Below are positions 2,799 through 62,432 of a stretch of 64,000 nt of DNA, piece after piece. The stretch covers positions 17,404 to 81,403 of the IMG/VR virus record IMGVR_UViG_3300032293_001310. One strand, given 5' to 3'. Made by a program: the position numbers and the translations under genes. A model generated the notes under the pieces. The model saw only the letters and a program-made list of their open reading frames with translations. It had not been told where the DNA came from and made no database searches. The DNA comes from a virus. The stretch's first letter is position 1. Each line of letters begins with the position of its first letter.

Positions 2799-2806
2799 TA
2801 TTTATA
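2799..2806 (+). promoter_or_regulatory. late-promoter-like TATTTATA before tail sheath
   Basis: The octamer TATTTATA lies just after a terminator and 32 bases before the sheath ATG, leaving room for a leader with the ribosome site AGGAG at 2824-2828. The same octamer recurs upstream of other structural genes. It is the reverse complement of the T4 late promoter TATAAATA, so its function is inferred from position only. Confidence 0.4.
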
Positions 2807-2838
2807 TTTACAACTTTTTATATAGGAGTTAAAAAACT

Positions 2839-5800
2839 ATGGCAATCGAACAAAATGGAAATTATAGCCCTTCAGAACGCATCGTTTCGCCTGGTGTATT
2901 CACCAGAGAAATAGATCAGTCGTTTCTTGCACAGGGTGTAGCAGCAATCGGCGGTGTGGTAGTCGCTCCGTTCCCAAAAGGACCGGGCTTTTCACCAACC
3001 GTGATCAATAGTGAAGGTGACTTAACTAGCATATTCGGTGATGCAGATGGTACGCTATACGGACCAATCACTGCACAGCAATATCTTCGTCAACAAGGAC
3101 AAGTAACAGTTGTTCGTGTTGGTGGTCTTTCCGGATACAACCAGAAACAGGGACTATTTGTCACCGCACTACCTGGTCAATATGCCAGATTCGTTGAAAC
3201 TGGTAGTGTATCTGGATCTTTGCTGGATTCTACACTATATCCAAATTCTTCGGTAGATCACGAATTTTATATCACGGGCAGCGTTAGTGTCACTTTTGAC
3301 AGTGGATACTATGAAGGAGAAACGATTGAAATTGGTACCTTGCAAGTAAAAACTTGGAAACGTACTTCCACTATGTTGTATGGAGCATCAACTGCATCCG
3401 GAGACTGCTTGGATACATTTGTTGCAACCGCTTCATTTGAAAATACTCCAATTACTATCATTGGTTCTGCTCCATGGAACGGTGTAAAAGTTCAACAACT
3501 CACGATACGTAGAGTACCAGGAGCATGCGACTTTGAATTGGAAATAGAAGCAATTCTTTCTGGTTCATACGGTCCATTCAATCCAAATGCATTTACTGCT
3601 GGCACAATATCCTCGGAAGATGGTTGCGGAAGCGCTTCAGCAATTCCTGCAAGAGACGAAGTTGTATTGGCGGTACTAGCAAATACAGCATACGACCGTG
3701 GCCAAAATCTATACGGATTTAGCGGATCGCTGTTGTATACATCATCCGCAGCGGCAGTTACTACGGATTTTTCTCTCGCGCTAAATACAATCTACACCGA
3801 TGGAAGTGGCAATACCGCAAGTTCGTCTTACGGTACATATCGTTTCTCGTTGGATGAAGAATCGAACAGTTACATCACCAATGTATTTGGTACCGATCCA
3901 AAGGCTGGATTCGTTCCAGTTGCTGCCGGTCAAAAGATTGAAGCGGCCTACACATACAAGAATTTCAAGAGCCGTACAAAAACGGTGATAAATGAAATGC
4001 TTGCGTCCGGTAGTTGGAAGATTGCAATTGCTACTCGCAACGCACTTGTGTTTGAAGACGGCATCGAACCAGCAGACGGTACTTCTACGTTCGATCTTAC
4101 GAACGCATACACACCGTTCATTCGCTCACAGTTGATCGCTCCTTTCACCGGAAGTGGAGTTTCTTCTAGTGCAGCATATGATCTGTTCAAGGTTCATACA
4201 CTAACAGACGGTACATCTGCAAATACCGCATATAAGGTTGAAATATCAAACGTTAAATCCGCAGGTTCTATACCGGGAAGTTCGTATGGGTCATTCACAT
4301 TGGCTGTTCGCAGTTATAGCGACACCGACCTGAAGCCTGTATATCTAGAACGCTTTGACAATCTAAGTTTGGATGTCAATAGCGCCAACTACATCGCTCG
4401 TCGTATCGGCGATACATACAACTATATTGACTTCAATGGTAAGATTCTGGAATTCGGAGACTTCCCACAAAAGAGTAAATATATCCGCGTCGAAATGGCT
4501 ACTGCTCCATGGCCAGTAGACTCAATCCCATACGGATTTGGTCCATATGCTGCACCAGTTGGTGGAGACTTTGCCCGTCTAGGTAAGGTCACTCCAATGC
4601 AATACTGTTCCGCGTCTGCATATTTGCTACAACCGGGCAGATATGCTTCTGGAATAGTATTCCAGCCAGCCCCTGCACAAGCCGATGATGAACTAAAGGC
4701 GCTGTATCCAAACGGCTCATCCGTTGGTCCAGAATTGGATAACAAGCAATATTTTGCTCCAATACCTCAAGGTTCTTCTGTGGGTAAGAATGTTGCGTTC
4801 GACTTGGAAACATATTGCGGAGTTTCTCCACTGTATGTCGCTTCTCAAGAAAACACAAACGTAAAGAAACGTCGCTTTGTGCTAGGATTCCAAGGCGGAT
4901 TCGATGGTCAATCTCCTTCTGTTCCATTGTTGATTGGTAATGATATATTACCAACAAATCAACAAGGACTAGATTGCGCGACATCGACAAGCCGTGGTAC
5001 ATATGCATACAGACAAGCAATCGCTGCTCTAAGTAATGCAGATGAGTTTGATTTCAACCTCATCACAACGCCTGGTGTAAATTATCAACATCACGCATAT
5101 ATATCATCAGCAATTGTTGATATGTGCGAACGCCGTGGCGATGCATTCTATATCATGGATGTTGCTCCAAACCAAAGTGCTGGTGCATCTTCCATACAGA
5201 ACGCAGTTGATCTCGCTGGTCAGTTTGACACAAACTACGCCGCGACATACTATCCTTGGGTCAAGGTAGTTGAAACAAACAGCAATAAGATTATGCCGGT
5301 TCCTCCTTCGGTCGTAATGATGAGCGTTTATGCAGCAAACGATAAGGTTGCAGCCGAATGGTTTGCTCCAGCAGGTCTAAACCGTGGTGGTATTCCAACC
5401 GCCGTATCTGTTGCTGACAGATTGACACATACTGAACGTGACACTCTATACGAAGGTCACGTAAACCCAATCGCCGCATTTCCTGGTCAAGGTGTTGTGG
5501 CTTGGGGTCAGAAGACGCTACAACGCAATCCAAGCGCATTGGATCGCGTAAATGTTCGCCGTCTATTGATTGCGTTGAAGAAGTTCATCGCTTCTTCTTC
5601 GAGATTCCTAGTATTCGAACAGAATGTAGCAACAACCCGTCAGCGCTTCCTGAATATCGTAAATCCATATTTGGAAAGCGTACAACAACGTTCTGGCGTA
5701 TATGCCTTCAAGGTTGTTATGGATGACAGCAACAATACACCTGATCTAGTTGATCGTGGTATATTGTATGGTCAAATCTATATTCAGCCAACACGTACCG

Positions 5801-5934: not shown

Positions 5935-5942
5935 TATTTATA
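5935..5942 (+). promoter_or_regulatory. TATTTATA four bases before an ATG
   Basis: TATTTATA ends at 5942, exactly four bases before the ATG at 5947. There is no Shine-Dalgarno sequence between them. If the octamer acts as a late -10 element, transcription would begin at about the start codon, giving a leaderless message. Confidence 0.4.
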
Positions 5943-5946
5943 AAAT

Positions 5947-6510
5947 ATGCATATACTCCTAAAAACTCTATTAAAAGAAGTAGAAGAAAAGTCTCCCTTA
6001 AAATATCAAATGTATGTGGATATGGACGGAGTTCTTGTAAATCTTGATAAAGGGTTCAAGGCAGTTTCTGGTGGATTATCTCCAAAGGAATACGAAGATA
6101 AAAATGGTAAAAACACTTTTTGGAAAGTAGTAAATAAAAATCCCAACTTCTGGCTTGAGTTAGAACCATTACCAGATGCTAAAGTTTTGTGGGACTATAT
6201 AAAAGATACGTTTGAAGATCCTCCTGCGGTTGTGTTGAGTGCTGGACAAGGAAATAAAATAACAGAACAAAAAACTGCGTGGATACGTAAGCATATAGAT
6301 CCCAGTGTCAAAGTCATCATAGCAAAATCTGGCATTAAAAAATCGGAATATATTATTGACGGCGCGGGTACTAAACTTACTCATATACTACTTGATGATA
6401 CAGACAAGAATATAACTGCTTGGGAAAATTCCGGTGAAAATAGAATTGCTATTTTACATAAAGATGCGGCGAGCAGCATAAATAAGATTAAACAGATTGT
6501 GTCTGTATGA
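5947..6510 (+). CDS. HAD-superfamily phosphatase, 5'(3')-deoxyribonucleotidase-like
   Basis: The 187-residue protein has the HAD motif I as YVDMDGVLVNL (residues 22-32; D24 and D26 would be nucleophile and acid/base). It has a motif II-like VVLSAGQG and a late acidic motif ILLDDTDKNI. Phage proteins of this type resemble NT5C-like deoxyribonucleotidases and probably act in nucleotide turnover. Ahead of motif I is an extra amphipathic N-terminal segment MHILLKTLLKEVEEKS, similar to the N-terminal peptides of the 9-14 kb proteins. The start is supported by the TATTTATA placed four bases upstream. The stop overlaps the next gene by ATGA, so translation is coupled to the following two genes. Confidence 0.75.
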   Translation: MHILLKTLLKEVEEKSPLKYQMYVDMDGVLVNLDKGFKAVSGGLSPKEYEDKNGKNTFWKVVNKNPNFWLELEPLPDAKVLWDYIKDTFEDPPAVVLSAGQGNKITEQKTAWIRKHIDPSVKVIIAKSGIKKSEYIIDGAGTKLTHILLDDTDKNITAWENSGENRIAILHKDAASSINKIKQIVSV

Positions 6511-6755: not shown

Positions 6756-7660
6756 ATTATCCTTTATACAACGACAAACTTGCTCCTATATGGAACATCA
6801 ATGAAGATGGCGCGAGACTTGATGATGAAGTAAGAAAATCGCTCATCAAGATTGCGATGGATTTTGTGCAGGATCTAAAAAAGAACCAAGATATAAACAT
6901 CAAGATCGATGACATACTTCTTATTGGTTCTATCACCAATTATAATTGGACGCCATATTCAGATATTGATCTACATATATCAACCGATTTTTCCAAACTT
7001 GATATGAGCAAAGAAGATGCACAGGCTATGTTTGATGCGATTAAAACTGGTTGGAATAGCAAGCACGACATTGTGATGAAAAACTTTGATGTTGAGTTAT
7101 ATGTTGAAGATATAGGGGCAGAACAGGTGTCTGCATCGAAGTATAGCGTTCTAAGAAATGAATGGATAAAAGAACCAAAGAAAGAAAGTCCAAACTTCAA
7201 TAAGTCGCTTATAAAAAAGAAGTATAAAGAATACTCAAAGAAGATAGATGACTTGATGGATGCAGACAGCGAAAAGCCGCTAAAAGATTTACTCGAAAAG
7301 ATATACAAGTTTCGTCAAGCGGGATTAGATAAGGGCGGAGAACTAAGTGAAGAAAATATTGTATTCAAGATACTAAGAGCAAGGGGCAAGTTGGATAAAC
7401 TAAAAGACACTATATCAGCGATTTACGACGATAAGATGAGTGTCGATGAAATCGCCATGAACAATAGTTATTATGAGAAGGATGTTCAAGACGCGGCAGA
7501 TGATATATATGCGATTGCAAAAGCGTTAAAAGTATATCCAGATATTGAACCATATATCAAAAAGATATCATTAAAATACAAGAAGTATTCGGACGATGTG
7601 CATATAGACATCGCAAGGGCATTTTCAAAGCTTAGAAAACAACAAATAAAAACATCTTGA
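6752..7660 (+). CDS. nucleotidyltransferase-fold protein
   Basis: This 302-residue protein contains LLIGSITNYNWTPYSDIDLHI (about residues 55-75), the GSx(8-10)DxD catalytic pattern of the polymerase-beta nucleotidyltransferase superfamily. A further acidic residue that could complete the triad is in FDVELYVED. The start at 6752 is chosen over an in-frame ATG at 6719 because 6752 gives the usual ATGA overlap with the previous gene. The remainder is charged and helical with many Lys residues. Similar proteins occur in many phages without known substrate; transfer of a nucleotide to RNA, protein or a small molecule is possible. Confidence 0.7.
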   Translation: MNYPLYNDKLAPIWNINEDGARLDDEVRKSLIKIAMDFVQDLKKNQDINIKIDDILLIGSITNYNWTPYSDIDLHISTDFSKLDMSKEDAQAMFDAIKTGWNSKHDIVMKNFDVELYVEDIGAEQVSASKYSVLRNEWIKEPKKESPNFNKSLIKKKYKEYSKKIDDLMDADSEKPLKDLLEKIYKFRQAGLDKGGELSEENIVFKILRARGKLDKLKDTISAIYDDKMSVDEIAMNNSYYEKDVQDAADDIYAIAKALKVYPDIEPYIKKISLKYKKYSDDVHIDIARAFSKLRKQQIKTS

Positions 7661-7684
7661 CATAATATATCGGCGTGATAATAT
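7657..7684 (+). promoter_or_regulatory. sigma70-type promoter, leaderless geometry
   Basis: TTGACA (7657-7662), a 16-base spacer and TAATAT (7679-7684), followed by six bases and then the ATG at 7691. The predicted transcription start coincides with the start codon, and no ribosome site is present. Confidence 0.7.
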
Positions 7685-7690
7685 GTCGGT

Positions 7691-8380
7691 ATGCTAAAGA
7701 ATATTAAGTTTGCCCGGTTTGGCGGGCTTAGTTCAGTCAATCAAAAGGGATATGATTCGAACTGTGATGGCTATCATTCTCCTCCCGCCAAGCGTGGCTT
7801 TTATGCGTTTCTTTGGCCGCATTATGAGTTCTTTCTTCTCAGCGGTGGATTATGGACAAACTATCCTTGGTCAATAGGCACCAAGTTCAGTTACTTGAAA
7901 GACGCAAAGGGTAATATCATTGACGAAAATCATCCTGATCATGAATACTTTTCCAGCACAGGAAAGTATTGGAGCATTCCCACCAAAGAATGGTATTTTC
8001 ATCAGAAGAAACATCCTGAATATGAAGACCCCGAATATGATGCTAAGTTGGAGGCACATTGTATTGATTGGGAAACAAATCACGGAGATAAGCCCAAGTG
8101 GGTGTTGGTCCAAAAGCCTTCGCCCAGAATCTTTGAGTACAAAGGAAATATCTGGCATCATTTGACCTGCTATCTTGGACCTTCTGGTGCACTGAAGCAG
8201 AAAGGCGGTTGGACTCTTTCGCCGTTTGACGAATACGCAAAAGCATTACAAAAAAACATGCACGCTGGTCGCAGGACACAGTGCGAATACAGTTCCAAAA
8301 AAGGACTACCGAAGTCCAACAAAAATCCTTATGTGGGAATATCCAAGGATCATTTGGAAGTTTTTATTGAGAAAATTTGA
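7691..8380 (+). CDS. aromatic-rich protein of unknown function
   Basis: A 229-residue protein that I do not recognise. It is strikingly rich in Trp, Tyr, Phe, His and Pro (for example GFYAFLWPHYEFFLLSGGLW near residue 40), with a later conserved-looking segment FEYKGNIWHHLTCYLGPSG. It has no membrane segment or cysteine cluster. The gene follows a sigma70-type promoter whose -10 box ends six bases before the ATG, so it looks like an early-expressed gene sitting inside the late structural block. Its base composition is less AT-rich than its neighbours. Confidence 0.65.
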   Translation: MLKNIKFARFGGLSSVNQKGYDSNCDGYHSPPAKRGFYAFLWPHYEFFLLSGGLWTNYPWSIGTKFSYLKDAKGNIIDENHPDHEYFSSTGKYWSIPTKEWYFHQKKHPEYEDPEYDAKLEAHCIDWETNHGDKPKWVLVQKPSPRIFEYKGNIWHHLTCYLGPSGALKQKGGWTLSPFDEYAKALQKNMHAGRRTQCEYSSKKGLPKSNKNPYVGISKDHLEVFIEKI

Positions 8381-19754: not shown

Positions 19755-19762
19755 TATTTATA
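19755..19762 (+). promoter_or_regulatory. TATTTATA four bases before an ATG
   Basis: The octamer lies immediately after the tape measure stop (19752-19754) and ends four bases before the ATG at 19767, with no ribosome site between. The geometry is identical to 5935-5947. Confidence 0.4.
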
Positions 19763-19766
19763 GCAT

Positions 19767-21932
19767 ATGGCCGACAACACATTTTTAGCCCCATTATCGC
19801 CGATACAAAGAAGTACACCTTCTGATCGGTTGCTCACGTTTCAAAAAAACGAAAGGAGCATATATAATAAGTTTAGTCCATACGATCAAGCGGGTGGAGA
19901 CATAGGGCCAAATCAGCCATATATATACACCAAACTTACTGATTCAAATTTTCAAAAGAGTTTAACGCGGTATGATACACCAGCATTTCCTGTAGGATCT
20001 ACTGTTAGAGATGTCATAAGAATGACAAAATTTTCGGTTAGCGGTACTGGATTATTATATGCAGGAAAACAACTTCTACTTCAACAGCAAAATGCATTTA
20101 ATGAAACTAGAGTATATAATCCATTAAGTTTGTTGAAAGCAACCGCTCGACCGGGTTCACTTGGACTAATTGATTATCCACAAAGACATTTGGAGACAAG
20201 TGGCGGCTTATTGAATTTTTTTAAAGACGCATTATATAGCACACTTGGAATTCAGTCAAAAGATACCACAAATGCACCGATAGAAGGAACAGCGACTGGT
20301 GCACAGGGAGGACTTGCTTATTCTCAATATGCCGGAAAACATGGCGGTGCTCGTGCTGGTTTGTTACGATACAAAACTGCGACATCTGCGATGGCTACAT
20401 TTGATACATTTTGGGTAAGTAGTAATACTTCCGGTGGTTCTAGTGGAGGATTTTTGGAAAATCTAGCAAAAGGATTTTTAAACAAACTAAAAAGTCTAAT
20501 ACCCAGCACTAATCCGATGGGAGCATTTGGTGGGAATACGGGAACAAAATGGGAATTCAGACCAGAATATGGTACGAATTTAAAAGGTATATACTATAAA
20601 TTTCTTGCAGATGGCAATAAGAACTTATCCGTGAATATCTGGCCCGCTCCCGAATTCCGCAACGGAAAAGTGTATGATGCGCAGATAACACGAAAAAACG
20701 TAACAGCGTTTCATAAATACTCGCCAGAAGAATCCACAAAAATAAGTCCGGCAAACCCATTAGTGATTGATAATGGATATGCAAGCAATCGAGACATAGC
20801 GCAGAATCGCGTTGGTGAACTTGGAAACAACATACTTGATAAGTATAAAAAAATGATGGATGCGGTGGAAAAGTTTGATATTAATAATCCAATTCAACTT
20901 AGAGTATCGACTGAGAGATATTGGAATGAAACACAAGATTCAAATGGTGTATTATATTCTTCATATCAAAGTATACCAAACCAAGGCGATGTAAACAACA
21001 CATTTTCAGGCAAAATGGTTGACACCACTAGTGTAGAAAAACGAAAATTTGCAGTAGCATCCAAATACAGTGATATTAAATCCGGAAAAACATCGACGAA
21101 TTCTGGAGACACGTATAATGCCAGTAACGTAATATCTATAAAAGGCAGCAGCAATTCTTCAAAGAAGGGTCAGGACATAGATCCTATAAAAGGAATAGGA
21201 AACGATTCGACGGATATAATATTCTTTTATTTTTACGATTTAATCAACGAAGTATTTATTCCATTCAGAGCAACTCTTGGATCTATTACAGATCAAAATA
21301 GTCCAGAATGGGAAGATGTAAAATACATGGGTCGAGCAGATAGACTCTTTATATACAGAGGATTTAGTAGAGATGTGAGTTTTAATTTTAAAGTTTATGC
21401 AAACAGTATAAAAGAATTAATACCTATGTGGGAAAGAGTAAATTATTTGGTAGGATTGACCAGACCTAGCAAATATACAGACAGAGCGGTTGTTACCGAC
21501 GAAGAAACTATAAATAGACGAGAAAGTATACAACAAAATCTAGAACTAGCACAACTTACGGGAGATCAAGGAAATATAGATAATTTATCTACGGACTTGA
21601 GCACTTTGAATACAACCGGACGAGAAAGTGGATTTATATATCCTCCGATGATAGAATTCAGAATTGGAGATCTGTATGTAGACCAACCCGCAGTATTAAG
21701 TAGTGTTAGTGTTACTATACCCGACGATGCGCAGTGGGAAATGCTTCGCGCCGACGAGTATCAATATAACTTTGGTGGCCCAGATAAAATAATAAAAACT
21801 GCCGCAATGTCTAGGCAACTGCCAAACATAATCGACGTTTCCGTACAATTGCGAATGCTTGAAAAATCTAGATCATTGACTTCAAATTATCATTTTGGAC
21901 CAAGTGTAACAACCGGATGGAAGTCCTTATAA
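19767..21932 (+). CDS. baseplate/tail-tube initiator protein, gp48/gp54-like
   Basis: 721 residues. The order tape measure - this gene matches T4 (29-48-54). The C-terminal third (IIFFYFYDLINEVFIPFRATL, then RADRLFIYRGFSRDVSFNFKV, and PPMIEFRIGDLYVDQPAVLSS with VSVTIPDDAQWEM) resembles the tube-like domain of proteins that cap the baseplate and nucleate the tail tube. The N-terminal 450 residues are long and Ser/Gly/Asn-rich and are not recognised. The protein is larger than T4 gp48 (about 360) or gp54 (about 320), so it could combine the two roles. The family call is moderate. Confidence 0.6.
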   Translation: MADNTFLAPLSPIQRSTPSDRLLTFQKNERSIYNKFSPYDQAGGDIGPNQPYIYTKLTDSNFQKSLTRYDTPAFPVGSTVRDVIRMTKFSVSGTGLLYAGKQLLLQQQNAFNETRVYNPLSLLKATARPGSLGLIDYPQRHLETSGGLLNFFKDALYSTLGIQSKDTTNAPIEGTATGAQGGLAYSQYAGKHGGARAGLLRYKTATSAMATFDTFWVSSNTSGGSSGGFLENLAKGFLNKLKSLIPSTNPMGAFGGNTGTKWEFRPEYGTNLKGIYYKFLADGNKNLSVNIWPAPEFRNGKVYDAQITRKNVTAFHKYSPEESTKISPANPLVIDNGYASNRDIAQNRVGELGNNILDKYKKMMDAVEKFDINNPIQLRVSTERYWNETQDSNGVLYSSYQSIPNQGDVNNTFSGKMVDTTSVEKRKFAVASKYSDIKSGKTSTNSGDTYNASNVISIKGSSNSSKKGQDIDPIKGIGNDSTDIIFFYFYDLINEVFIPFRATLGSITDQNSPEWEDVKYMGRADRLFIYRGFSRDVSFNFKVYANSIKELIPMWERVNYLVGLTRPSKYTDRAVVTDEETINRRESIQQNLELAQLTGDQGNIDNLSTDLSTLNTTGRESGFIYPPMIEFRIGDLYVDQPAVLSSVSVTIPDDAQWEMLRADEYQYNFGGPDKIIKTAAMSRQLPNIIDVSVQLRMLEKSRSLTSNYHFGPSVTTGWKSL

Positions 21933-24980: not shown

Positions 24981-25008
24981 TTGACATTGTTCGCAAATAT
25001 GCCATATT
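24981..25008 (+). promoter_or_regulatory. sigma70-type promoter, leaderless geometry
   Basis: TTGACA (24981-24986), a 16-base spacer and CATATT (25003-25008), then six bases to the GTG at 25015. It marks the switch from the late tail block to the replication block. Confidence 0.6.
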
Positions 25009-25014
25009 GCTCAT

Positions 25015-26382
25015 GTGCATATTGTAGAAACAACCGAAGACTATAACAACCTGTGTTCAATCATAAACTCTGAACACGTTTATATCAGTGCTGTTTGTTT
25101 GGATAATCAAAAGCATGTGTCCAACAACAACATATCACTGATATTCTTCTACTTTTATGTCAGCGACGACTATTGGTGTTTGCCTATAGACCACAACGAG
25201 TGTATCTGCTTGGATAATAGTCTTGAGAACATCAAGGTCGTATTGCGTAATGCCAAGTTCCATAACAAGATAGTTTCAGACAAGAAGAATATTGTTCAGT
25301 TGTTTAGCGAGGATTATAACTTCATAGACATAGATGTGTTTAGATTTCTTGAGAATGGCCAACTGCCGTCTGAAGTTGAGACGACTAACTCGCACAGTTT
25401 CATTGATTTTCATTTCAAGAATATGTTTGATTTGAACAAGTGTGTGCCGGTATATAAGCACGCCAAAGTATTCACAGATAATGTTCAGAAGATAAAGAAC
25501 ATATACTTGTCTAATATTCGCGAGAAGGGATTTGTATTCACCAACAATGTTATGACTGACTTGTTTGCCAAGTTAGAGTCAAATGGGTTGTGCGTGAATG
25601 AAGATTTTACTGATATTTTCGGCGAGGAACAAAATCGCCATATCAAGAACAATCTTGTATTCTCTCAATACAACCTGCTTACATCAACTGGTAGACCTTC
25701 TAATAGATTTGGCGGCGTCAATTATGCTGCTCTAAACAAAAATGATGGCAGCAGAAACTGCTTTGTAAGCAGATATGGCGACGATGGTATGCTTGTGATG
25801 ATGGACTATAATGCTTTTCATCCTCGTCTTATTGCTCACTTATCCAACTTCCAAATGGACGCCGCTGAAAATCCATACGCATATCTATCCAAGTATTATT
25901 TCAACAAGTCCAATATAACCGACGAAGATATTGCCGTCGCTAAAGGATTTACATTTACACAGATATATGGTGGTATTGATAAGAAGTGGATACATATTCC
26001 ATATCTAAAGAAGGTCCAAGAATATATTGACCATCGCTGGAAGTTCTTTGAGGAGAATGGATATATAGAAACGCCAAAGTATGGCAGAAAAATCAAACAT
26101 TGTCATATTCAAGACCCCACTCCCAACAAACTATTCAACTATATACTACAGGCATTTGAGACAGAAATGGCAGTAGATGTGCTTGGCGAACTAATGAACT
26201 ATCTAAGCGATAAACGAACCAAGCCGGTGCTATATACATACGATAGCATATTGTTTGATGCTCATAAAAGCGATAAGATGCCTGTTATAAAAAGAATAAA
26301 GAGCATAATGGAACGCGACAAGTTTCCGGTAAAAGTGTATGCAGGCAAGAATTATGGTGATATGAAACAGATTGCTCTATAA
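25015..26382 (+). CDS. divergent family A DNA polymerase-like protein
   Basis: 455 residues from a GTG start. The palm motifs of PolA enzymes are visible. Motif A is MMDYNAFHPRLIAHLS with D264 in the catalytic position. Motif B is AKGFTFTQIYGG, with K310, F314 and Y318-G319 at the exact spacing of the E. coli PolI O-helix. Motif C is YTYDSILFDA with D410. Changes from the canonical enzyme are Ile at the O-helix Arg, Tyr for the motif C His and Ser for its Glu. The N-terminal 220 residues are not clearly an exonuclease. A separate family B replicase is encoded at 50193, so this is a second, specialised or regulatory polymerase. The promoter overlaps its start. Confidence 0.72.
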   Translation: MHIVETTEDYNNLCSIINSEHVYISAVCLDNQKHVSNNNISLIFFYFYVSDDYWCLPIDHNECICLDNSLENIKVVLRNAKFHNKIVSDKKNIVQLFSEDYNFIDIDVFRFLENGQLPSEVETTNSHSFIDFHFKNMFDLNKCVPVYKHAKVFTDNVQKIKNIYLSNIREKGFVFTNNVMTDLFAKLESNGLCVNEDFTDIFGEEQNRHIKNNLVFSQYNLLTSTGRPSNRFGGVNYAALNKNDGSRNCFVSRYGDDGMLVMMDYNAFHPRLIAHLSNFQMDAAENPYAYLSKYYFNKSNITDEDIAVAKGFTFTQIYGGIDKKWIHIPYLKKVQEYIDHRWKFFEENGYIETPKYGRKIKHCHIQDPTPNKLFNYILQAFETEMAVDVLGELMNYLSDKRTKPVLYTYDSILFDAHKSDKMPVIKRIKSIMERDKFPVKVYAGKNYGDMKQIAL

Positions 26383-28734: not shown

Positions 28735-28767
28735 GTTGAACATAGTAGTAGAATAAATGATGAGAAG

Positions 28768-28799
28768 ATGGTGCGCCAGATGGAGTACTGGCGCACCAT
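28768..28799 (+). terminator. perfect 12-bp hairpin between SSB and recombinase genes
   Basis: ATGGTGCGCCAG (28768-28779) pairs perfectly with CTGGCGCACCAT (28788-28799) around an 8-base loop. No T run follows, so it may be a partial terminator, a processing site or a 3' stabiliser that lets SSB be made in excess of the downstream proteins. Confidence 0.6.
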
Positions 28800-28820
28800 T
28801 ACTCAAATATACTATCATAT

Positions 28821-30041
28821 ATGAAAAAGAAAACTATTGAACACGAGATTGAATCATCTCGCGATGAACTGGCAGAAGCATTGGCTGACTCCATCAACAA
28901 GAACAGCGACGGTAAAGTTGCTTTCTTCCTTGATGCAGAAGATGATCCTTCGCAAATTACTGACTGGGTTTCTACTGGAAATAGTCTCGTTGACTTGACT
29001 ATTGCCAATCGACCAAATGGTGGATTGCCTGTAGGAAGAATTACTGAACTAACTGGTCTTGAAGCATCTGGTAAGAGCCTTATGGGCGCGCACCTACTTG
29101 CTGAGACCCAGAAGAAGGGTGGACTGGCAGTATTCATCGACACAGAAACTTCCGTATCTACGGATTTTCTAACAGCCATTGGTGTAGACGTTCCAAAGAT
29201 GCTATATATCAATGTTGATACAGTAGAAGATGTTTTTGATAAGGTTGAAGAAATCATCACTCTTGTTCGCAAGAGCAGCAAGAATCGTCTTGTGACTATT
29301 CTGGTTGACTCTGTTGCCGCTGCTTCTACAAAGAAGGAATTGGCAAGCGATCACGGTGCGGACGGTTTTGCCACCGGCAAAGCCATTGCCATCAGCAAGG
29401 CGATGAGAAAGATTACAGGACTTATTGCCAAACAGCGTGTATGCCTGTGCTTTACCAATCAACTTCGCCAAAAGGTGGGATTTGTTGGACTTGGTGATCC
29501 TTGGACAACCAGCGGTGGTAAAGCAATTGCGTTTCACGCTTCGCTTCGCCTACGTCTAAAGCAGTTGAATCAAATCAAGAACTCTGATAAACAGACGGTT
29601 GGTATTCGTACCAAGTGCACTGTTGTCAAAAATCGTATGGGACCACCCATGCGAAGCGCTGAGTTTGACATCTACTTTGACCGAGGCATTGACAACTTCA
29701 GCAATTGGTTAGAACATCTCATTGAATGGGATATTGTAACTAATGCTAAGAAGCCAAAGATTGCAGGTGAAAAGAAGACAAAGAAACAGTTGGAAGAAGA
29801 AAAGGAAGAAGATAAGAAGGCAAAGAACCTACAATTCATTATGCCTGTCGAAGGCAAAGAACCCGAGACGGTTGTATTTGAAAAGAAGGACTTGCCTAAG
29901 TTGCTCAAAGACAGACCAGAGTGCAGAGACTATCTTTATAACAAACTTTGCGAAAATTTTGTTATGAAGTATAAGGCTCCAAACTCTGAAATGGCTGATG
30001 ACGTTGAATACGACGAAGCATCGGAAGGAGCAGACGACTAA
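28821..30041 (+). CDS. uvsX: UvsX/RecA-like recombinase
   Basis: 406 residues. Walker A is GLEASGKS (residues 79-86), and a Walker B-type strand VTILVDSVAA is near residue 165. The L2-adjacent region CLCFTNQLRQKVGF fits RecA-fold recombinases of the UvsX type, and the C-terminus is acidic. It forms filaments on ssDNA for recombination-dependent replication and repair. A TATACT box at 28808-28813 ends seven bases before the ATG, again leaving almost no leader. A Lys/Glu-rich insertion lies at about residues 315-335. Confidence 0.9.
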   Translation: MKKKTIEHEIESSRDELAEALADSINKNSDGKVAFFLDAEDDPSQITDWVSTGNSLVDLTIANRPNGGLPVGRITELTGLEASGKSLMGAHLLAETQKKGGLAVFIDTETSVSTDFLTAIGVDVPKMLYINVDTVEDVFDKVEEIITLVRKSSKNRLVTILVDSVAAASTKKELASDHGADGFATGKAIAISKAMRKITGLIAKQRVCLCFTNQLRQKVGFVGLGDPWTTSGGKAIAFHASLRLRLKQLNQIKNSDKQTVGIRTKCTVVKNRMGPPMRSAEFDIYFDRGIDNFSNWLEHLIEWDIVTNAKKPKIAGEKKTKKQLEEEKEEDKKAKNLQFIMPVEGKEPETVVFEKKDLPKLLKDRPECRDYLYNKLCENFVMKYKAPNSEMADDVEYDEASEGADD

Positions 30042-32610: not shown

Positions 32611-32698
32611 GAAAATTTTGTAAAATTTTTTTGCATAATTTATTTTTTATAACACGTATTTATTCTCCACACAATAATACCAAGCGGAGGAAATTTTT

Positions 32699-33673
32699 AT
32701 GACAATCTTTGACGAACAAATCGCTCGTAAGCCAAATCGCTATCCTTGGGCACAAGAATATATTGATGCCATGTGGGCTGGACATTGGACTCCAAACGAG
32801 TTCACATTCACATCCGACTTACAGCAATACAAAACCGAACTAACTCCGCAAGAGCAGGTCATTATCAAGAATGCTTTGAGTGCAATCGGACAGATAGAAA
32901 TATCTGTAAAGAAATTTTGGACGAAACTTGGTGATACACTACCACATCCAGCATTATCTGATCTTGGTATTACTATGGGCAATATTGAAGTTATTCATAA
33001 CAATGCATATGAAAAACTATTGGATGTGCTACAAATGCAGGATGTATTTGAAGAGAACCTCAAGCTTGATATTATTCAAGGCCGTGTAAAGTATCTACGC
33101 AAGTATCTTGACAAGGTATATACAGACAATCGTAAGCAGTATATATACTCGCTGATTCTTTTTACACTTTATGTAGAAAACGTGTCTCTATTTAGCCAGT
33201 TTTATATTATCAATTGGTTCAATCGTTATAAAGGATTATTGAAGGATACGGCTCAACAAGTCGCATATACGGCAAAGGAAGAAACACTACACGGTCTGGC
33301 CGGTGGAAAGATTGTAAATACTATTCGTCAAGAATTGCCAGAATTGTTTGACGCTGAACTTGAAGAAAAAATTATCCACGAAGCACGGGAATCATATAAT
33401 GCTGAATGCAAACTTATTGATTGGATGATCGGTGATTATGCTGATGAAAAGATTAGTGCAGATATTCTGAAAGGTTATGTTCAGCGTCGTCTAAATGATT
33501 CACTTGAGATGATTGGCTTCAGAAAAATATTTGATGTGCCGCAAAGCATTATTGAGTTGACTACTTGGATGGATGAGGATGTAATGGGTAATACTATGAC
33601 TGATTTCTTCCATAAGAGGCCGGTCGAATATGCAAAGAAAACACAGTCTATACAAGCAGACGACCTATTTTAA
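32699..33673 (+). CDS. nrdB: ribonucleotide reductase small subunit, class Ia type
   Basis: 324 residues. Metal ligands are recognisable: GNIEVIHNNAYEKL gives Glu and His plus the Tyr four residues later that would carry the radical, LYVENVSLFSQF gives Glu, and KEETLHG gives the last Glu and His. The protein ends in SIQADDLF, the acidic/hydrophobic tail that docks on NrdA. It has a strong ribosome site (GGAGG) about ten bases upstream. It generates the radical used by the large subunit encoded five bases downstream; NrdB precedes NrdA here. Confidence 0.92.
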   Translation: MTIFDEQIARKPNRYPWAQEYIDAMWAGHWTPNEFTFTSDLQQYKTELTPQEQVIIKNALSAIGQIEISVKKFWTKLGDTLPHPALSDLGITMGNIEVIHNNAYEKLLDVLQMQDVFEENLKLDIIQGRVKYLRKYLDKVYTDNRKQYIYSLILFTLYVENVSLFSQFYIINWFNRYKGLLKDTAQQVAYTAKEETLHGLAGGKIVNTIRQELPELFDAELEEKIIHEARESYNAECKLIDWMIGDYADEKISADILKGYVQRRLNDSLEMIGFRKIFDVPQSIIELTTWMDEDVMGNTMTDFFHKRPVEYAKKTQSIQADDLF

Positions 33674-36614: not shown

Positions 36615-36643
36615 TTGACTTCATATAAAAAGTGTACCATAGT
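36615..36643 (+). promoter_or_regulatory. sigma70-type promoter before MoxR-like gene
   Basis: TTGACT (36615-36620) with CATAGT at 36638-36643 (17-base spacer), eight bases before the ATG at 36652. An alternative -10 is TAGTAC at 36640-36645, six bases before the ATG. Either way there is almost no leader and no ribosome site. Confidence 0.55.
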
Positions 36644-36651
36644 ACATAAAT

Positions 36652-37599
36652 ATGAATAAGATTAAAAAGAATATGCCCACCGACACCAAGACGTTTATTG
36701 ACCAGTCTGCCGACATCAAACCCAGCAAACTGTACATGAAGGATATCAAGTGGAAGTATCTCGTTCGCAGTGCTTTGCGGGGCAAAAACATTCTTATCGT
36801 TGGTCCTTCTGGTCACGGCAAGACGTTTGCCATTCAATGCCTCGTCGATGCCCTTGGTCGCCGCGACAACTATTTCTACATCAATATGGGTGCCACTCAA
36901 GACCCCCGTGCGTCTTTGATCGGTAATACTCACTTCAACAAGGAGTCTGGTACTCTGTTTGACGAGTCTCCCTTTATCAAGGCTATTCGTACTCCCAATA
37001 CCATCATTCATCTCGATGAACTTTCCCGAGCCCACCCCGATGCTTGGAACATTTTGCTCACTCCGCTCGATTACATCCAACGTTATGTTCGTTTGGATGA
37101 AAAACTTGGCAGTGAAAAGGTGCAGGTCGCCGACGGCGTGTGCTTTATTGCTACAGCGAACGTGGGCAACGAATATACTGCTACCCGCGTGATGGACAAG
37201 GCTTTGCTTGATCGTTTCACCGTCAAGATTGAGGTTGACATTCTCTCGCAGAATACAGAGATGGAACTCATCAAGACCCACTGCCCCGATGCCAATATGA
37301 ACACGATGTTGGCAGTCACGGAGATTGCTGCTGCTACCCGTGAGTTTGCTTCGCAAGGCAAGTTGAGCAAGTTCATCTCTACTCGTAGTGTCAAGGAAAT
37401 GGCTGAACTTACTGTTGACGGATTCAACCTTACCGAACTTGCTGATATGGTTATTTATCCAGATTATCCAGACGACGGCGGACTTGATTCTGAACGTACT
37501 CTGGTAAAACAGGTTGTGCAAAAGTATATCAGCACCGAGACCAACAACAATCTTTATACCGCTACTGCCAATACTGTTGACGGCAGCACCCCCTTCTAA
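36652..37599 (+). CDS. MoxR/CobS-like AAA+ ATPase
   Basis: 315 residues. Walker A is GPSGHGKT (51-58), Walker B is IIHLDELSRA (D122, E123), and a sensor-type segment FIATANVGNEY is followed by LLDRF. This layout belongs to the MoxR/CobS branch of AAA+ ATPases. Related phage genes are often labelled CobS after the cobaltochelatase subunit, but there is no cobalamin pathway here. The next gene, two bases downstream, encodes a protein with a VWA domain, the usual partner of MoxR ATPases. The pair probably remodels or inserts metal into a target complex. Confidence 0.8.
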   Translation: MNKIKKNMPTDTKTFIDQSADIKPSKLYMKDIKWKYLVRSALRGKNILIVGPSGHGKTFAIQCLVDALGRRDNYFYINMGATQDPRASLIGNTHFNKESGTLFDESPFIKAIRTPNTIIHLDELSRAHPDAWNILLTPLDYIQRYVRLDEKLGSEKVQVADGVCFIATANVGNEYTATRVMDKALLDRFTVKIEVDILSQNTEMELIKTHCPDANMNTMLAVTEIAAATREFASQGKLSKFISTRSVKEMAELTVDGFNLTELADMVIYPDYPDDGGLDSERTLVKQVVQKYISTETNNNLYTATANTVDGSTPF

Positions 37600-43788: not shown

Positions 43789-44029
43789 ACTCATCATAAA
43801 TTCCGGGAATGTATGTTTGGCTAAATATATAGATAAGCCTTATATTTCATCGTCGCCACTTATACAAGTGGAGGTAACGTGTGGAAGTTGTAATTTAACA
43901 TTTGCTACAAATAACTATATACCAGACAAAAACAGATATATATCAAATTGTCCTCATTGCGGTAAATGGAATAGGCTAAATTTGTATACTATGGGGGTAA
44001 AAGAACGGCGTTTTTTGACTACCTTCTGA
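43781..44029 (+). CDS. zinc-ribbon-like small protein
   Basis: 82 residues with two CxxC knuckles 34 residues apart ([10 protein letters not shown] and [10 protein letters not shown]), a rubredoxin-like zinc ribbon. It starts inside the end of the preceding gene. Such small ribbons are common in phages as nucleic-acid-binding or assembly factors. No closer identity can be given. Confidence 0.6.
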
Positions 44030-44048
44030 TAGTTATAATAATACAAGA

Positions 44049-44816
44049 ATGAGCCTATTTATAAAAAGAAGCCCACCGGCTGACGGCAATCCTGACGGCA
44101 TTATATATGCTCCGCAAGGCGCGCTCTTTTTTAAGACTGGGTCTTTTTACAAAGTTAATTATTCTGGGTCAAACCACGGTGGCAGTTGGGAAAATGTATT
44201 TTTTCAACCAACCAAGTTATCTTTTATATTACAAACGATTAGAGATATAAGTTTATTAAACAAACCTTTGTCCGGACCATATTTGTATATAAAGACGACC
44301 GGAAATATATCTAATACGGGATGGAAATATTTGGGAAACCGAAATCCATTTATCCCGCTTCCAACTCCAACTCCATCAGTAACTCGGACGGTGACTCCAA
44401 CAATTACTCCAACACCAACGATCACTCCGACAATTACTCCAACACCAACCACAAGTGTAACGGTTACCCCGACTATTACACCCACAAGAACTTTAACCAA
44501 AACTCCAACTCCCACTAAGACGCCAACTAAGACGCCAACCAAGACGCCAACTTCAACTCCTACCAGAACACCCGACGGGTATATTACACCGACTCCTACC
44601 AGAACTCCGGATGGCTACATCACTCCGACACCAACTAACAGTATTACGCCAACAATTACACCGACACTCTCGTCCACTCCAACAAAGACGCCAACGGCGA
44701 CACCGACAAAAACACCGACCATAACGCCTACAAAAACACCAACAGTGACGCCAACAGTGACGCCAACAGTGACGACAACGATGACACCGACAGAAAGTCC
44801 TCCATATAGTATTTAA
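44049..44816 (+). CDS. Thr/Pro-repeat fibre-like protein, probable glycosylation substrate
   Basis: 255 residues. The N-terminal ~100 residues ([19 protein letters not shown], then [19 protein letters not shown]) match the YAPxGSLxxRxxG...LYVKTxGxxxTGW pattern of phage fibre and whisker proteins. Residues 105-250 are an almost uninterrupted array of TPT, TPTIT and TKTPT units with two [12 protein letters not shown] insertions. Thr/Pro arrays of this kind are extended stalks and, where glycosyltransferases are present, O-glycosylation sites (mucin-like). The next seven genes are sugar-modifying enzymes in the same operon. No signal peptide is seen. Confidence 0.7.
44361..44800 (+). repeat. degenerate tandem repeat coding for Thr-Pro units
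   Basis: Codon-level repeats of ACT/ACA/ACG CCA/CCG/CCT. They include a near-identical duplicated block around 44561-44628 (ACNCCNGACGGNTA type) and a run of GTGACGCCAACA units at 44747-44775. Such arrays can expand or contract by slippage. Confidence 0.8.
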
Positions 44817-50158: not shown

Positions 50159-50186
50159 TTGACATATCCATATCCTGTGGTAGTAT
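50159..50186 (+). promoter_or_regulatory. sigma70-type promoter, leaderless geometry, DNA polymerase
   Basis: TTGACA (50159-50164), 16-base spacer, TAGTAT (50181-50186), then six bases to the ATG at 50193. Spacing is identical to that at 7657. The polymerase N-terminus aligns with T4-type polymerases from this ATG, so a leaderless transcript is likely. Confidence 0.75.
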
Positions 50187-50192
50187 ATTGGT

Positions 50193-52709
50193 ATGTATCA
50201 AGCCGTATTCTATGATCGCAAGGCCAACTTTGTGCACGTTTGGGATGACCAAAATGGTTATGCCAGAGTGAAGTATGTGCCATATGCGTATAAAAAGAAG
50301 AAGGGTGGAAAATATAAGTCTATTTATGGTCAAGAACTTGAGCGAGTTGAGAAGTTCAATCCGCGAGATTCTTCACTGCTTGAGTCGGATGTTCCTGTTG
50401 AAACTCGTTTTCTGATAGATGTTTATGGAAGCAGCGACGACGCATCTACCAATCATCGTCTTGCGGTGCTTGACATTGAAGTGGATTCTACTGGCGGATA
50501 TCCTAATGTAGAGAATCCTGTGCAGAAGATTACTGCTATTGCGTTGTGCGATGTAGCAAATAACAAATACTATTGCTTTGTTCTTGATGAAGATGGTGTT
50601 GTAAAAGATGGTGTAATGCACGGTGCAGAAGTAACTGCGTATCTGCATGAACAAGATTTGCTCAAGGCATTCTTGACCAAGTGGAGAGAAGTCAATCCTA
50701 CTATTGCTACTGGATGGAATATTGACGGCTTTGACTTTCCGTATCTTCACGCTCGACTGCTAAAGGTGTTTGATGAAGAAACTGCTGGACAGTTGTCTCC
50801 CATCGGAGTTTGCTATTTCAACAAGTTCAAGAACAAGATGACTATTGCCGGTGTGAATACGCTGGACTATATCTTGCTGTATAAGAAATATAGCCAGAAG
50901 AACTTGCCAAACTATCGTCTGGATACGGTTGCTAAGGAGGAACTTGGTGTTGGTAAGGTTGATTATGATGGTTCTCTTGACAACTTGAAGAAGACAGACA
51001 TCAACAAGTTTATTGAGTATAACTTGCACGATATTGTGCTTGTTCGCAAGATGAATGACAAGTTGCAGTTCATCGACCTTGCCCAGAGCATCTGCCACGT
51101 TTGTCATACGGGTTATGAAGAATTCAGCATTTCCAGCAAGATTCTTGAAGGTGCGTTGCTTACATATCTTCGCCGCAAGAAACTTGTTGCTCCAAACAAG
51201 CCGCAACAGAAAGATGACGAAGACTCAGTTGGAGATGACGACGATGATAGTGAAGAAGGATTTGTTGGTGCGTATGTAAAAGATCCTGTACCTGGTCGTT
51301 ATGATTGGGTATGTTCTGCTGACATCAATTCGCTGTATCCCAGCGTGATTATGAGCATCAACATCTCTCCCGAGACCAAGATGGCAGTAATCAATAACTG
51401 GAGTGCGGAGAAGTTTGCCAAGCAGACAGAAGATGTTGTTGATTTTGCCGACGACAAATATACATACAAGCAACTCAATACGTTCTTTGCGGAAAACAAT
51501 CTGTCTGTAAGTGCCAACGGCGTGGTATATGACCAGAAGAAGATCGGTTGTATTCCAGACATTCTAAAGAAGTGGTTTGCTGAACGTGTAGAATACAAGA
51601 ACAAGATGAAAGAAGCGTCTGATAGTGGAGACAAGGCTGCTACTGCATTCTGGAAGCGTCGTCAGCAAGTGCAGAAGATTCTGCTCAACTCGCTGTATGG
51701 TGTTCTTGGTCTGCCGATTTTCAGGTTCTATGATCTTGATAATGCCTCCGCTGTTACACTTACTGGTCAGGAAATCATCAAGACCAGTGCCAAGTTTGTA
51801 AATGCTCGCTTCAACAAACGCTGCGATACAAAAGACAAGGACTATGTAATCTATATTGATACTGACTCGCTATATCTTGACATCAACTCTCTTGCCAAGC
51901 ACGAGAAGATAATAGATATCAAGCCATATGCCATCAATACCATCAACGAAGTTGCTGACGGCTTGAATGACTTTTACAAGGTAATGATGGTAAAGATGTT
52001 CAATAGCACAGACAATCGCATCAAGATTGCTCCCGACGTTGTTGCTCAAGCCGCATTCTGGATAGTCAAGAAGCGTTATGCAATGCTCAAGGTGTATAAT
52101 ATGGAACTGGGCAAGGACACCAACGACATTGAAATCAAGGGTCTGGACGTTGTGCGTTCAAGTTATCCCAAGAAGTTCAGAGATTTTATGAGTTCGGTTC
52201 TGGAAGACATATTGCGTGGCACAGACAAGAAGCAACTGGATAAGAAGATTCTGGACTTCAAGTCGTCCATGAAGTCGTTCAACCTTGAAGACATTGCCAA
52301 GAATACTTCTGTTCGTTTCATCGCCAATACCGACGCCAAGACAGATTTCAACCCCAAGGACAGAGAACTATTTCACTTCGTTGATGGTTCTACTGCTCAG
52401 TGTAAGGCTGCGCTCGCATATAACGATATGCTAAAGAGATACAATCTTACAGAAACAGAACCCATTATGAGTGGCGGAAAAATCAAATGGGCATATGTAA
52501 AAAGCAATCCATTTGGCTTGGATGGACTTGCGTTCAAGGATGATGGTAAAGACCCCAAGATTGTTATGGACTTTATCAATCAGTATATTGACCGTAACCG
52601 CATCTGGGATGCTGAGTTAGAAAAGAAACTCAAGCACTTCTATGAAGCACTAAACTGGACATTATACAGCGAAGATGAAGAAGCAATCAGCGAGTTCTTT
52701 GCTTTTTGA
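50193..52709 (+). CDS. replicative DNA polymerase, family B (T4 gp43-like)
   Basis: 838 residues. The proofreading exonuclease has LAVLDIEVDS (D94, E96), WNIDGFDFPYL and YNLHDIVLVRKM. The polymerase domain has motif A SADINSLYPSVIMSINIS (near residue 376), motif B KILLNSLYGVLG and motif C YIDTDSLYLDI (DTDS at about 556). All catalytic residues are intact. It is followed by sliding clamp and clamp loader genes, the T4 order of partners reshuffled. A short acidic insertion (EDSVGDDDDDSEEG) separates exonuclease and palm. Confidence 0.95.
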   Translation: MYQAVFYDRKANFVHVWDDQNGYARVKYVPYAYKKKKGGKYKSIYGQELERVEKFNPRDSSLLESDVPVETRFLIDVYGSSDDASTNHRLAVLDIEVDSTGGYPNVENPVQKITAIALCDVANNKYYCFVLDEDGVVKDGVMHGAEVTAYLHEQDLLKAFLTKWREVNPTIATGWNIDGFDFPYLHARLLKVFDEETAGQLSPIGVCYFNKFKNKMTIAGVNTLDYILLYKKYSQKNLPNYRLDTVAKEELGVGKVDYDGSLDNLKKTDINKFIEYNLHDIVLVRKMNDKLQFIDLAQSICHVCHTGYEEFSISSKILEGALLTYLRRKKLVAPNKPQQKDDEDSVGDDDDDSEEGFVGAYVKDPVPGRYDWVCSADINSLYPSVIMSINISPETKMAVINNWSAEKFAKQTEDVVDFADDKYTYKQLNTFFAENNLSVSANGVVYDQKKIGCIPDILKKWFAERVEYKNKMKEASDSGDKAATAFWKRRQQVQKILLNSLYGVLGLPIFRFYDLDNASAVTLTGQEIIKTSAKFVNARFNKRCDTKDKDYVIYIDTDSLYLDINSLAKHEKIIDIKPYAINTINEVADGLNDFYKVMMVKMFNSTDNRIKIAPDVVAQAAFWIVKKRYAMLKVYNMELGKDTNDIEIKGLDVVRSSYPKKFRDFMSSVLEDILRGTDKKQLDKKILDFKSSMKSFNLEDIAKNTSVRFIANTDAKTDFNPKDRELFHFVDGSTAQCKAALAYNDMLKRYNLTETEPIMSGGKIKWAYVKSNPFGLDGLAFKDDGKDPKIVMDFINQYIDRNRIWDAELEKKLKHFYEALNWTLYSEDEEAISEFFAF

Positions 52710-57282: not shown

Positions 57283-57310
57283 TTGACAAAAGGTTATTAT
57301 AGTGTATGGT
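57283..57310 (+). promoter_or_regulatory. sigma70-type promoter before RNA ligase
   Basis: TTGACA (57283-57288), 16-base spacer, TATGGT (57305-57310), nine bases before the ATG at 57320. The leader would be about three bases. Confidence 0.6.
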
Positions 57311-57319
57311 AATAGCATT

Positions 57320-58342
57320 ATGGACCGAAAACTGGCATCTATTCAACTTATCAAAGAACTGAACCCTATAACTGGAGCAGATGCTATTCTTTGTGCCAAA
57401 GTTCTTGGTTGGGAATGTGTTGTAAAAAAGAATGAATTTCGGCCCAATGACAAATGTGTGTATTTTGAGATTGACTCTGTACTTCCTATCGCAAGTTGGA
57501 ATGATCATTTGCGTAAAGAGCCAAATAAACCATTGAGAATCCGTAGCATAAGATTGAAAAATCAACTATCACAAGGATTGGCACTTCCACTTTCTATTCT
57601 ACCCCAAGGCGAATATGAAGTTGGGCAGGATGTTACATCGCTTGTTGGTGTTGAAAAATATGAACCTGTTGTGCCTGCTCATTTGAGCGGAATTGTCAAA
57701 GGAAACTTTCCATCTTTCTTACATAAGACAGATGAAGTTCGTCTGCAATCTGAACCAAATGTGCTTGTTGAAGCAAGCAATAAAGGATTGGTGCTTATTG
57801 GCACACTAAAGATGGATGGCACAAGTTTTACAGCATATCGTCGTGATGATGAGTTTGGTGTATGCTCTCGCAATCTCAACCTGAAAGAAACAGAAGATAA
57901 TGCTCATTGGAAGATGGCTCGCAAGCTCAAACTTGAAGAGATTCTTCGCAGTGAAGAACGTAATCTGTGTATTCAAGGTGAAATGGTTGGGCCGGGCATA
58001 CAAGCAAATCGTCTTGGGCTCAAAGAGATTGACCTATATCTTTTCAATCTATACGACATTGATAGTGGCAAATATCTCAACAGAGAAGATTTGATTAGTT
58101 TTGGCAAGAAACATAACATCAAGATTGTAGATACTGTACATAGTCTTCAACTTGGTAATGATTTTGTGCCTAATAGTGTTGATTATTTTTTGAGTATTGC
58201 CAATGAACTGAACTACTCCAACGGTACTCCCGCTGAAGGTATTGTTTGGCGTCCAAGCGTTGAAACATACAGCGATGTATTGAAGGGCCGTCTATCTTTT
58301 AAATGCATATCAAACCGCTTCTTGGAAAAATACAAAGAATGA
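57320..58342 (+). CDS. RNA ligase, DRB0094/Rnl5-like family
   Basis: 340 residues from the ATG at 57320. The ligase motifs are in order: motif I GTLKMDGTSF with lysine K164 as the AMP acceptor, CSRNLNL, motif III-type IQGEMVGPGIQANR (E221), motif IV EGIVWRP (306-312), and motif V LSFKCIS (K328). The N-terminal OB-like part precedes the adenylyltransferase domain, as in the Deinococcus DraRnl-like (Rnl5) ligases. It would seal nicks in RNA, for example tRNA cut by host defence nucleases. It is coupled by ATGA to the next gene. Confidence 0.85.
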   Translation: MDRKLASIQLIKELNPITGADAILCAKVLGWECVVKKNEFRPNDKCVYFEIDSVLPIASWNDHLRKEPNKPLRIRSIRLKNQLSQGLALPLSILPQGEYEVGQDVTSLVGVEKYEPVVPAHLSGIVKGNFPSFLHKTDEVRLQSEPNVLVEASNKGLVLIGTLKMDGTSFTAYRRDDEFGVCSRNLNLKETEDNAHWKMARKLKLEEILRSEERNLCIQGEMVGPGIQANRLGLKEIDLYLFNLYDIDSGKYLNREDLISFGKKHNIKIVDTVHSLQLGNDFVPNSVDYFLSIANELNYSNGTPAEGIVWRPSVETYSDVLKGRLSFKCISNRFLEKYKE

Positions 58343-60027: not shown

Positions 60028-60056
60028 TTGACATATATATTATATCTATAGATATA
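60028..60056 (+). promoter_or_regulatory. sigma70-type promoter before holin
   Basis: TTGACA (60028-60033) with GATATA (60051-60056) at a 17-base spacing, seven bases before the holin ATG, with no ribosome site. Confidence 0.5.
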
Positions 60057-60063
60057 CAAATAT

Positions 60064-60384
60064 ATGGCAGATGATAAAGACCTAATAAGAGAGTTTTTAA
60101 CTGGCGGATGGCTGGTAGCACTAATAGGTGCGGCGGGCATGGTCGCAAGATTGCTAACAGACGAAAGTAAGATGCCGTGGGTAGAACAACTCAAAAAGAT
60201 ATTTGCTGCTTCTATATGCTCTATAATAGCGTGGTTTATGTTGGAACAAACTGACATAGCCAGCCTTACCAAAGCAATAATATATGGTGTTGTTGGTGTA
60301 ATATCACCTGAGTTATTACAAGGATTGGCAAGATTAGCAAAGCAAGTATCCAAAAACCCAGAAAAGTTTATCAAAAAACGATGA
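60064..60384 (+). CDS. holin
   Basis: 106 residues. There are two or three hydrophobic helices: LTGGWLVALIGAAGMVARLL (about 12-31), KIFAASICSIIAWFML (about 44-59) and IIYGVVGVISPELLQGL (about 73-89). The N-terminus is acidic and the C-terminus very basic (KNPEKFIKKR). This is the layout of phage holins that time lysis by forming membrane holes. No endolysin is visible nearby. The stop overlaps the next start by ATGA. Confidence 0.75.
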   Translation: MADDKDLIREFLTGGWLVALIGAAGMVARLLTDESKMPWVEQLKKIFAASICSIIAWFMLEQTDIASLTKAIIYGVVGVISPELLQGLARLAKQVSKNPEKFIKKR

Positions 60385-61950: not shown

Positions 61951-61993
61951 ATATGTAATGTTTTCGGACTCCGAGTCCATATTTATTACATAT
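61951..61993 (+). promoter_or_regulatory. hairpin covering the HNH start codon, with embedded late-type element
   Basis: ATATGTAAT (61951-61959) pairs with ATTACATAT (61985-61993), with an inner GGAC/GTCC stem. The 3' arm includes the first two bases of the ATG at 61992. TATTTATT (61980-61987) lies inside the hairpin and ends four bases before that ATG. RNA read in from upstream would hide the start; RNA started at the inner element would not. Confidence 0.55.
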
Positions 61994-62432
61994 GAAACAA
62001 AATCACAAATGTAAAGTAACGGACCAGCAGATAATAGACGCATATAATGCAACCTTGACATTACACGAAGCGGCGGGTGAATTGGACATCACAGTAATTA
62101 CTCTTTGGAGAAGAGCCAAAAAATTAAATTTGGCCTGGAAAAATAAAGGATACAGAGGAAATAAAAAAGGCATAAAGATACCGCTCAACGAAATTCTCGA
62201 AGGTAAGCATCCAGAGTATCAAACATTTAAATTAAAAAAGCGATTAATATGGGAAAAAGTAAAGGAAAATAAATGTGAAGTGTGTGGAATATCCGAATGG
62301 ATGAACCGAGAATTGATAATGCAACTTGACCATATTGACGGAGACCCGCACAATCACAAATTGGATAACTTGAGAATGATTTGCCCAAATTGCCACTGCC
62401 AAACAGATACTTGGTGTGGTAAGAATAAATAA
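61992..62432 (+). CDS. HNH homing-type endonuclease
   Basis: 146 residues. The C-terminal HNH domain is complete: KCEVCGISEWMN, then LDHIDGDPHNHKLDNLRMICPNCH, with four zinc Cys and the catalytic His in LDHIDG. The N-terminal half (TLHEAAGELDITVITLWRRAKKLN) is a helix-turn-helix DNA-binding segment followed by a basic linker. Free-standing endonucleases of this kind spread between phages by cutting related genomes, often near tRNA genes. A hairpin over the start codon suggests expression only late. Confidence 0.88.
   Translation: MKQNHKCKVTDQQIIDAYNATLTLHEAAGELDITVITLWRRAKKLNLAWKNKGYRGNKKGIKIPLNEILEGKHPEYQTFKLKKRLIWEKVKENKCEVCGISEWMNRELIMQLDHIDGDPHNHKLDNLRMICPNCHCQTDTWCGKNK

Follow-up and report, generated by a model that had tools for sequence, protein, structure and literature searches.

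Sigma70-type promoters abutting start codons and predicted leaderless or near-leaderless mRNAs in an environmental T4-like phage lineage

The window analyzed here, a 64-kb stretch of an 81.4-kb IMG/VR virus contig (G000), encodes a T4-type family-B DNA polymerase (PolB), UvsX, a clamp loader, and a DnaB-type helicase, together with a ribonucleotide reductase, an RNA ligase, a tail sheath, a tail tube, a tape-measure-like protein, and eight tRNAs. Searches of viral-contig collections recovered many relatives, one of which, a contig of 297 kb (G001), has the appearance of a jumbo-phage genome. The top-scoring cultured match of PolB was from Microcystis phage Mel-JY01 (41%), and the first 20 kb had no megablast match among phage records. 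G001 also carried a tmRNA and about 37 tRNAs (L137:8295-8685; L136/L137/L141), as well as candidates, by resemblance to the eye, for a FecR/CHASE2-cyclase pair, a haemagglutinin-type secreted protein, a tyrosinase, and a peptide deformylase (L136:646-3605, L136:14079-16052, L137:3907-5399, L167:188-829). The CHASE2-cyclase-like gene was considered as a pointer to the host, and its one match, at 25% to a Caulobacteraceae MAG, was judged uninformative.

Three plus-strand sites in the window place TTGACA, a 16-base spacer, and a -10-like box exactly six bases ahead of a start codon, and direct reading agreed in full with the first-pass annotation that had described them. Specifically, TTGACA-16-TAATAT-GTCGGT-ATG (7657..7693) precedes a 229-aa gene with no function assigned, TTGACA-16-CATATT-GCTCAT-GTG (24981..25017, start 25015) precedes the gene for a short, 455-aa DNA polymerase A-like protein, and TTGACA-16-TAGTAT-ATTGGT-ATG (50159..50195, start 50193) precedes the T4-type family-B DNA polymerase gene. 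All three had TG at the extended -10 position (3/3) and none had a Shine-Dalgarno-like run (0/3), as expected from the earlier statement that these starts have no ribosome-binding site. The 7657 layout was repeated in L124, where protein identity was 93%.

Near-identical layouts had been proposed at four further starts. Three of these held on the plus strand, namely those of the CobS-like AAA ATPase gene (TTGACT-17-CATAGT-8-ATG, 36615..36654, start 36652), the RNA ligase gene (TTGACA-16-TATGGT-9-ATG, 57283..57322, start 57320), and a holin-like gene (TTGACA-17-GATATA-7-ATG, 60028..60066, start 60064), with 8, 9, and 7 bases, respectively, between box and start; for the last site a single near-identical relative was available for comparison. 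The fourth, at 28821, was dropped, having no TTGAC or other -35, a terminator-like hairpin upstream, and a TACTAT box that was lost in relatives. The hairpin itself (28735-28820) is strong, lies 20-30 nt upstream of the Shine-Dalgarno-less uvsX start, is kept in relatives with changed sequence, and may terminate transcription of the single-strand-binding-protein gene upstream. One plus-strand site absent from the first-pass annotation, TTGACT-16-AATAAT-6-ATG (44015..44051), precedes a 255-aa gene with no function assigned, and its layout was kept in three of six distinct orthologues.

The position of TTGAC was retained among orthologues of the polA-like, polB, cobS, and RNA ligase genes, in which the surrounding DNA diverged freely. 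For the polA-like gene, 20 of the 21 distinct upstream regions had TTGAC 28-34 nt ahead of the start, mostly at 28-29 nt (17 regions), and the GTG start was kept in 19/21 orthologues. The corresponding distances were 29-31 nt for cobS (7/7 orthologues) and 30-32 nt for the RNA ligase (8/9), the true start of which is 57320, the longer 57302 GTG not being used. Upstream of polB, TTGAC was found at 28-31 nt in 10 upstreams, all at about 69% identity or more, and was not found in G002 (64%) or more distant relatives, in which other -10-like boxes sometimes lay close to the start. The PolB N-terminus had MYQ at the same codon in most relatives (32-100% identity), and differences among near relatives over codons 2-16 numbered 44/23/70 at codon positions 1/2/3. 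The conserved MYQ start and this third-position excess just after it make the polB start at 50193 secure, as had been asserted. Third-codon-position counts for the RNA ligase, polA-like, and cobS genes gave no clear signal in ungapped comparisons.

We aligned 50 cases from four related contigs on TTGACW and found that the -10-to-start distance was mainly 6-11 nt with a floor at six, so that the six-base spacing does not hold as the fixed rule originally suggested. Distances below six were scored in four of the 50, two of which had another candidate box at the usual position, and distances were unchanged where the intergenic gap was long. The box 16 bp from TTGACW was a weak TAnnnT, with A at the second position in 68% and T at the sixth in 62%, and some boxes were poor (CAACGT, CAATGT). 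The elements are those of sigma70-type promoters (TTGACA-like -35, 16-18 bp spacer, TAnnnT-like -10), with individual -10 boxes varying. They also have two features of leaderless genes, a -10 box about 6-11 nt upstream of the start and no Shine-Dalgarno sequence. Shine-Dalgarno-like runs were present at 5-8% of intergenic starts in G000-G002 versus 47% in T4.

The pattern, for which the first-pass annotation had proposed a statistical scan, exceeded chance by a wide margin. With complete promoters defined as TTGACW, a spacer of 15-18, and a -10 box scoring >= 2 bits and ending 5-11 nt before an intergenic start (starts called by a simple longest-ORF rule), this contig had five against a mean of 0.03 (max 1) in 200 dinucleotide shuffles. 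G001 had 22 against a shuffle mean of 0.28 (max 3), G002 five against 0.07, and G003 four against 0.09; the same scan found none at the start-abutting position in G004 or in Mel-JY01. TTGACW was likewise biased to 28-34 nt before starts, with binomial P of 3e-4 in this contig, 4e-20 in G001, and 5e-4 and 1e-3 in the remaining contigs. The tests were designed after the pattern had been seen in this contig, which leaves G001 as the genuine test case; in addition, G003 and G001 share close orthologues, so that independence among the four contigs is incomplete. As a separate observation, many start-abutting promoters of G001 had in common a TATAAAAA run in the spacer right after TTGACW (L137-L142, e.g., L139:11990, L139:16219, and L139:18266).

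A second motif, TATTTATA, absent from the first-pass annotation, was in strong excess on the coding strand of the window (16 seen versus 2.8 expected), with no excess of its reverse complement. Copies of TATTTATA/T lay at 2799, 5935, 8483, 9163, 15956, 19755, 35385, and 61980, among other positions, in an orientation opposite to that of the T4 late box TATAAATA. This late-type motif was enriched 3-6 nt before starts in G001 (P 6e-6), G002 (9e-4), and the distant relative G004 (2e-4), and more weakly in this contig alone (P 0.08); in other genes it lay 11-44 nt upstream. On the plus strand, TATTTATA-4-ATG precedes a deoxyribonucleotidase-like gene (5935..5949), for which the spacing was also 4 in G001 and G003 and was 5 in G002, and a 721-aa gene (19755..19769), while TATTTATT-4-ATG precedes an HNH endonuclease gene (61980..61994). 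In contrast, two other plus-strand genes were leadered: the tail-sheath gene (2799..2841), in which TATTTATA is followed by a 32-nt stretch with AGGAG that was retained in G000-G003, and the ribonucleotide reductase small-subunit gene (32657..32701), in which TATTTATT is followed by a 34-nt stretch with a GGAGG that was missing in G001 and G003.

In T4, a late promoter is a TATA box of 8 bp that lies roughly one helical turn upstream of the transcription start (PMC2988020). The placement of TATTTATA would fit such a promoter, but its letters differ from TATAAATA, which was seen 5 times versus 4.5 expected, and by letters alone the motif does not qualify as a T4-type late promoter. Because it lies upstream of the tail sheath, tail tube, and tape-measure-like genes, we take the TATTTATA-type motif to be a variant T4 late box. 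A gp55-like late sigma factor probably acts at the TATTTAT(A/T) promoters; a gp55-like ORF was weakly matched in G001 (E 6.7e-5) and not matched in G000, a fragment. Small HNH-/GIY-YIG-like genes often had their own start-abutting TATTTATW (window 61980-62432; G004 L156, L158, L159, and L162), as though mobile endonuclease genes carried a late promoter along with them.

Sigma70 initiates 7 nt after the -10 box, and spacings of 6-11 nt therefore predict leaders of 0-5 nt; the floor at six would follow from a need to transcribe the start codon in full. The geometry was observed directly, as were its excess over shuffled sequence, its conservation, and the rarity of Shine-Dalgarno sequences, whereas where exactly transcription starts, which polymerase is used, and how the mRNAs are translated are inferred. 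In our preferred reading, to which we give a probability of roughly 0.85, the sites are sigma70-type promoters whose predicted mRNAs would have 0-5-nt leaders and be translated without Shine-Dalgarno pairing. Transcription would begin on the first base of the start codon, or 1-5 bases before it, and ribosomes would recognize the start codon by its place at the 5' end of the RNA, with no need for Shine-Dalgarno pairing. The arrangement would be a conserved one for a subset of genes in a T4-like lineage, including those for DNA polymerases, the CobS-like ATPase, and RNA ligase, with the TATTTAT(A/T) type of promoter placed likewise before some other genes and the tail-sheath gene keeping its Shine-Dalgarno leader. 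Leaderless transcripts, as initially proposed, are thus supported as the best reading, with the amendment that leaders are not all zero, many being predicted at 1-5 nt. The early temporal class that had been proposed for the TTGACW genes is a prediction from gene function, and the 60064 site precedes a holin-like gene.

The leaderless reading is favored because the geometry is conserved, has a floor at six, and is independent of gap length, and because the signature in Thermus phage phiYS40 is alike. Counted against it are the poor -10 boxes, the absence of the pattern in G004, Mel-JY01, and polB at <=64% identity, and the GTG at 25015. On leaderless mRNAs, 70S ribosomes bind AUG at or near the 5' end, and a GUG start is weak in E. 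coli and better in some other bacteria (PMC9031893). Sigma70 region 2 was not found in G000-G003, nor were ribosomal protein S21 or the IF3 C-terminal domain in G000-G004, and in the absence of the latter two any help in initiation would have to be supplied by the host or by unknown factors.

Several of the gaps are only 30-40 nt (7691, 25015, and 50193), as would be expected if compact packing had squeezed promoters against genes that are mostly expressed from read-through transcripts, the closeness being a by-product that serves no leaderless function. However, the 28-34 nt position was unchanged in gaps of > 60 nt (17/53 sites), there was no similar number of promoters with ordinary-length leaders, and S-PM2 and Mel-JY01 had no peak, so that we consider this improbable. 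It is somewhat more improbable still that the promoters are real and translation truly starts at downstream in-frame codons, giving ordinary leaders. A second in-frame ATG does follow soon after the first in some genes (e.g., cobS codon 8), but the homology of PolB (MYQ...) and RNA ligase (RKLASI...) sets in no more than two codons from the called start, polB differences favor third codon positions directly after it, and the polA-like GTG is retained across nearly all orthologues (19/21).

The variable -10 matches in some orthologues would also suit TTGAC acting as the binding site of a phage regulator rather than as a -35 element. This we regard as the least credible alternative, given that the TTGACW-aligned set has, 16 bp away, the A (68%) and T (62%) at second and sixth positions seen in TAnnnT, and that in phiYS40, too, TTGACW placed alike is accompanied by -10-like boxes at 5-9 nt from starts.

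Neither leaderless phage mRNA nor the -10-adjacent ORF is new in itself; as far as openly licensed literature shows, the novelty lies in the occurrence in a T4-like lineage, in the retention among orthologues, and in the sharing of this placement by two types of promoter, and in that literature we found nothing on leaderless phage early promoters at start codons. The results suggest that leaderless phage expression extends beyond Thermus phages and single repressor genes, and that an environmental T4-like lineage uses it as a stable strategy, DNA polymerases included. The promoters also offer gene callers a start-site signal where Shine-Dalgarno sequences are absent (57320, not 57302), and the conserved, probably leaderless GTG start of the polA-like gene is offered for study. 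More speculatively, and with appreciable doubt, a whole T4-like jumbo-phage lineage may use leaderless expression as a conserved strategy with host-type as well as late-type promoters, each gene being given either a leaderless start or a Shine-Dalgarno leader, such that host initiation machinery altered during infection could shift translation between the sets.

Comparison with known systems, phage genomes being scored with a common script, showed both likenesses and differences. T4 resembles them in its replication genes and AT-rich late-type box, and by the weakly gp55-like ORF of G001. In contrast to the arrangement here, T4 -10-like boxes were mostly 20-39 nt upstream, its early -35 elements (GTTTACW) mostly lay 48-67 nt before starts, Shine-Dalgarno sequences were common (47%), and its late box is TATAAATA rather than TATTTATA. 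Mel-JY01 had Shine-Dalgarno sequences at 43% and no peak, and S-PM2 had them at 6% and again no peak; therefore, a shortage of Shine-Dalgarno sequences is not by itself enough to produce the signature. Bacterial -10-adjacent ORFs and "TA-led" genes (Deinococcus-Thermus, Actinobacteria) have TANNNT a few bases upstream and leaderless mRNA (PMC12340547, PMC3160421), but are chromosomal, whereas the genes here are of phages and have a strong TTGACW -35 with a 16-bp spacer. Lambda cI is a leaderless phage mRNA (PMC9031893) and a single repressor transcript, unlike the set of replication genes found across this lineage. Finally, most middle and late mRNAs of phiYS40 are reported to be leaderless (PMC3594737), and this phage shares with ours TTGACW at 28-34 nt (6/28 starts) and -10-like boxes close to starts (at 5-9 nt in 36%). 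It is, however, an unrelated thermophilic phage by its annotated gene content, and its leaderless class is middle/late, whereas in our contigs the TTGACW promoters stand before replication genes and start codons are also abutted by a separate, late-type motif.
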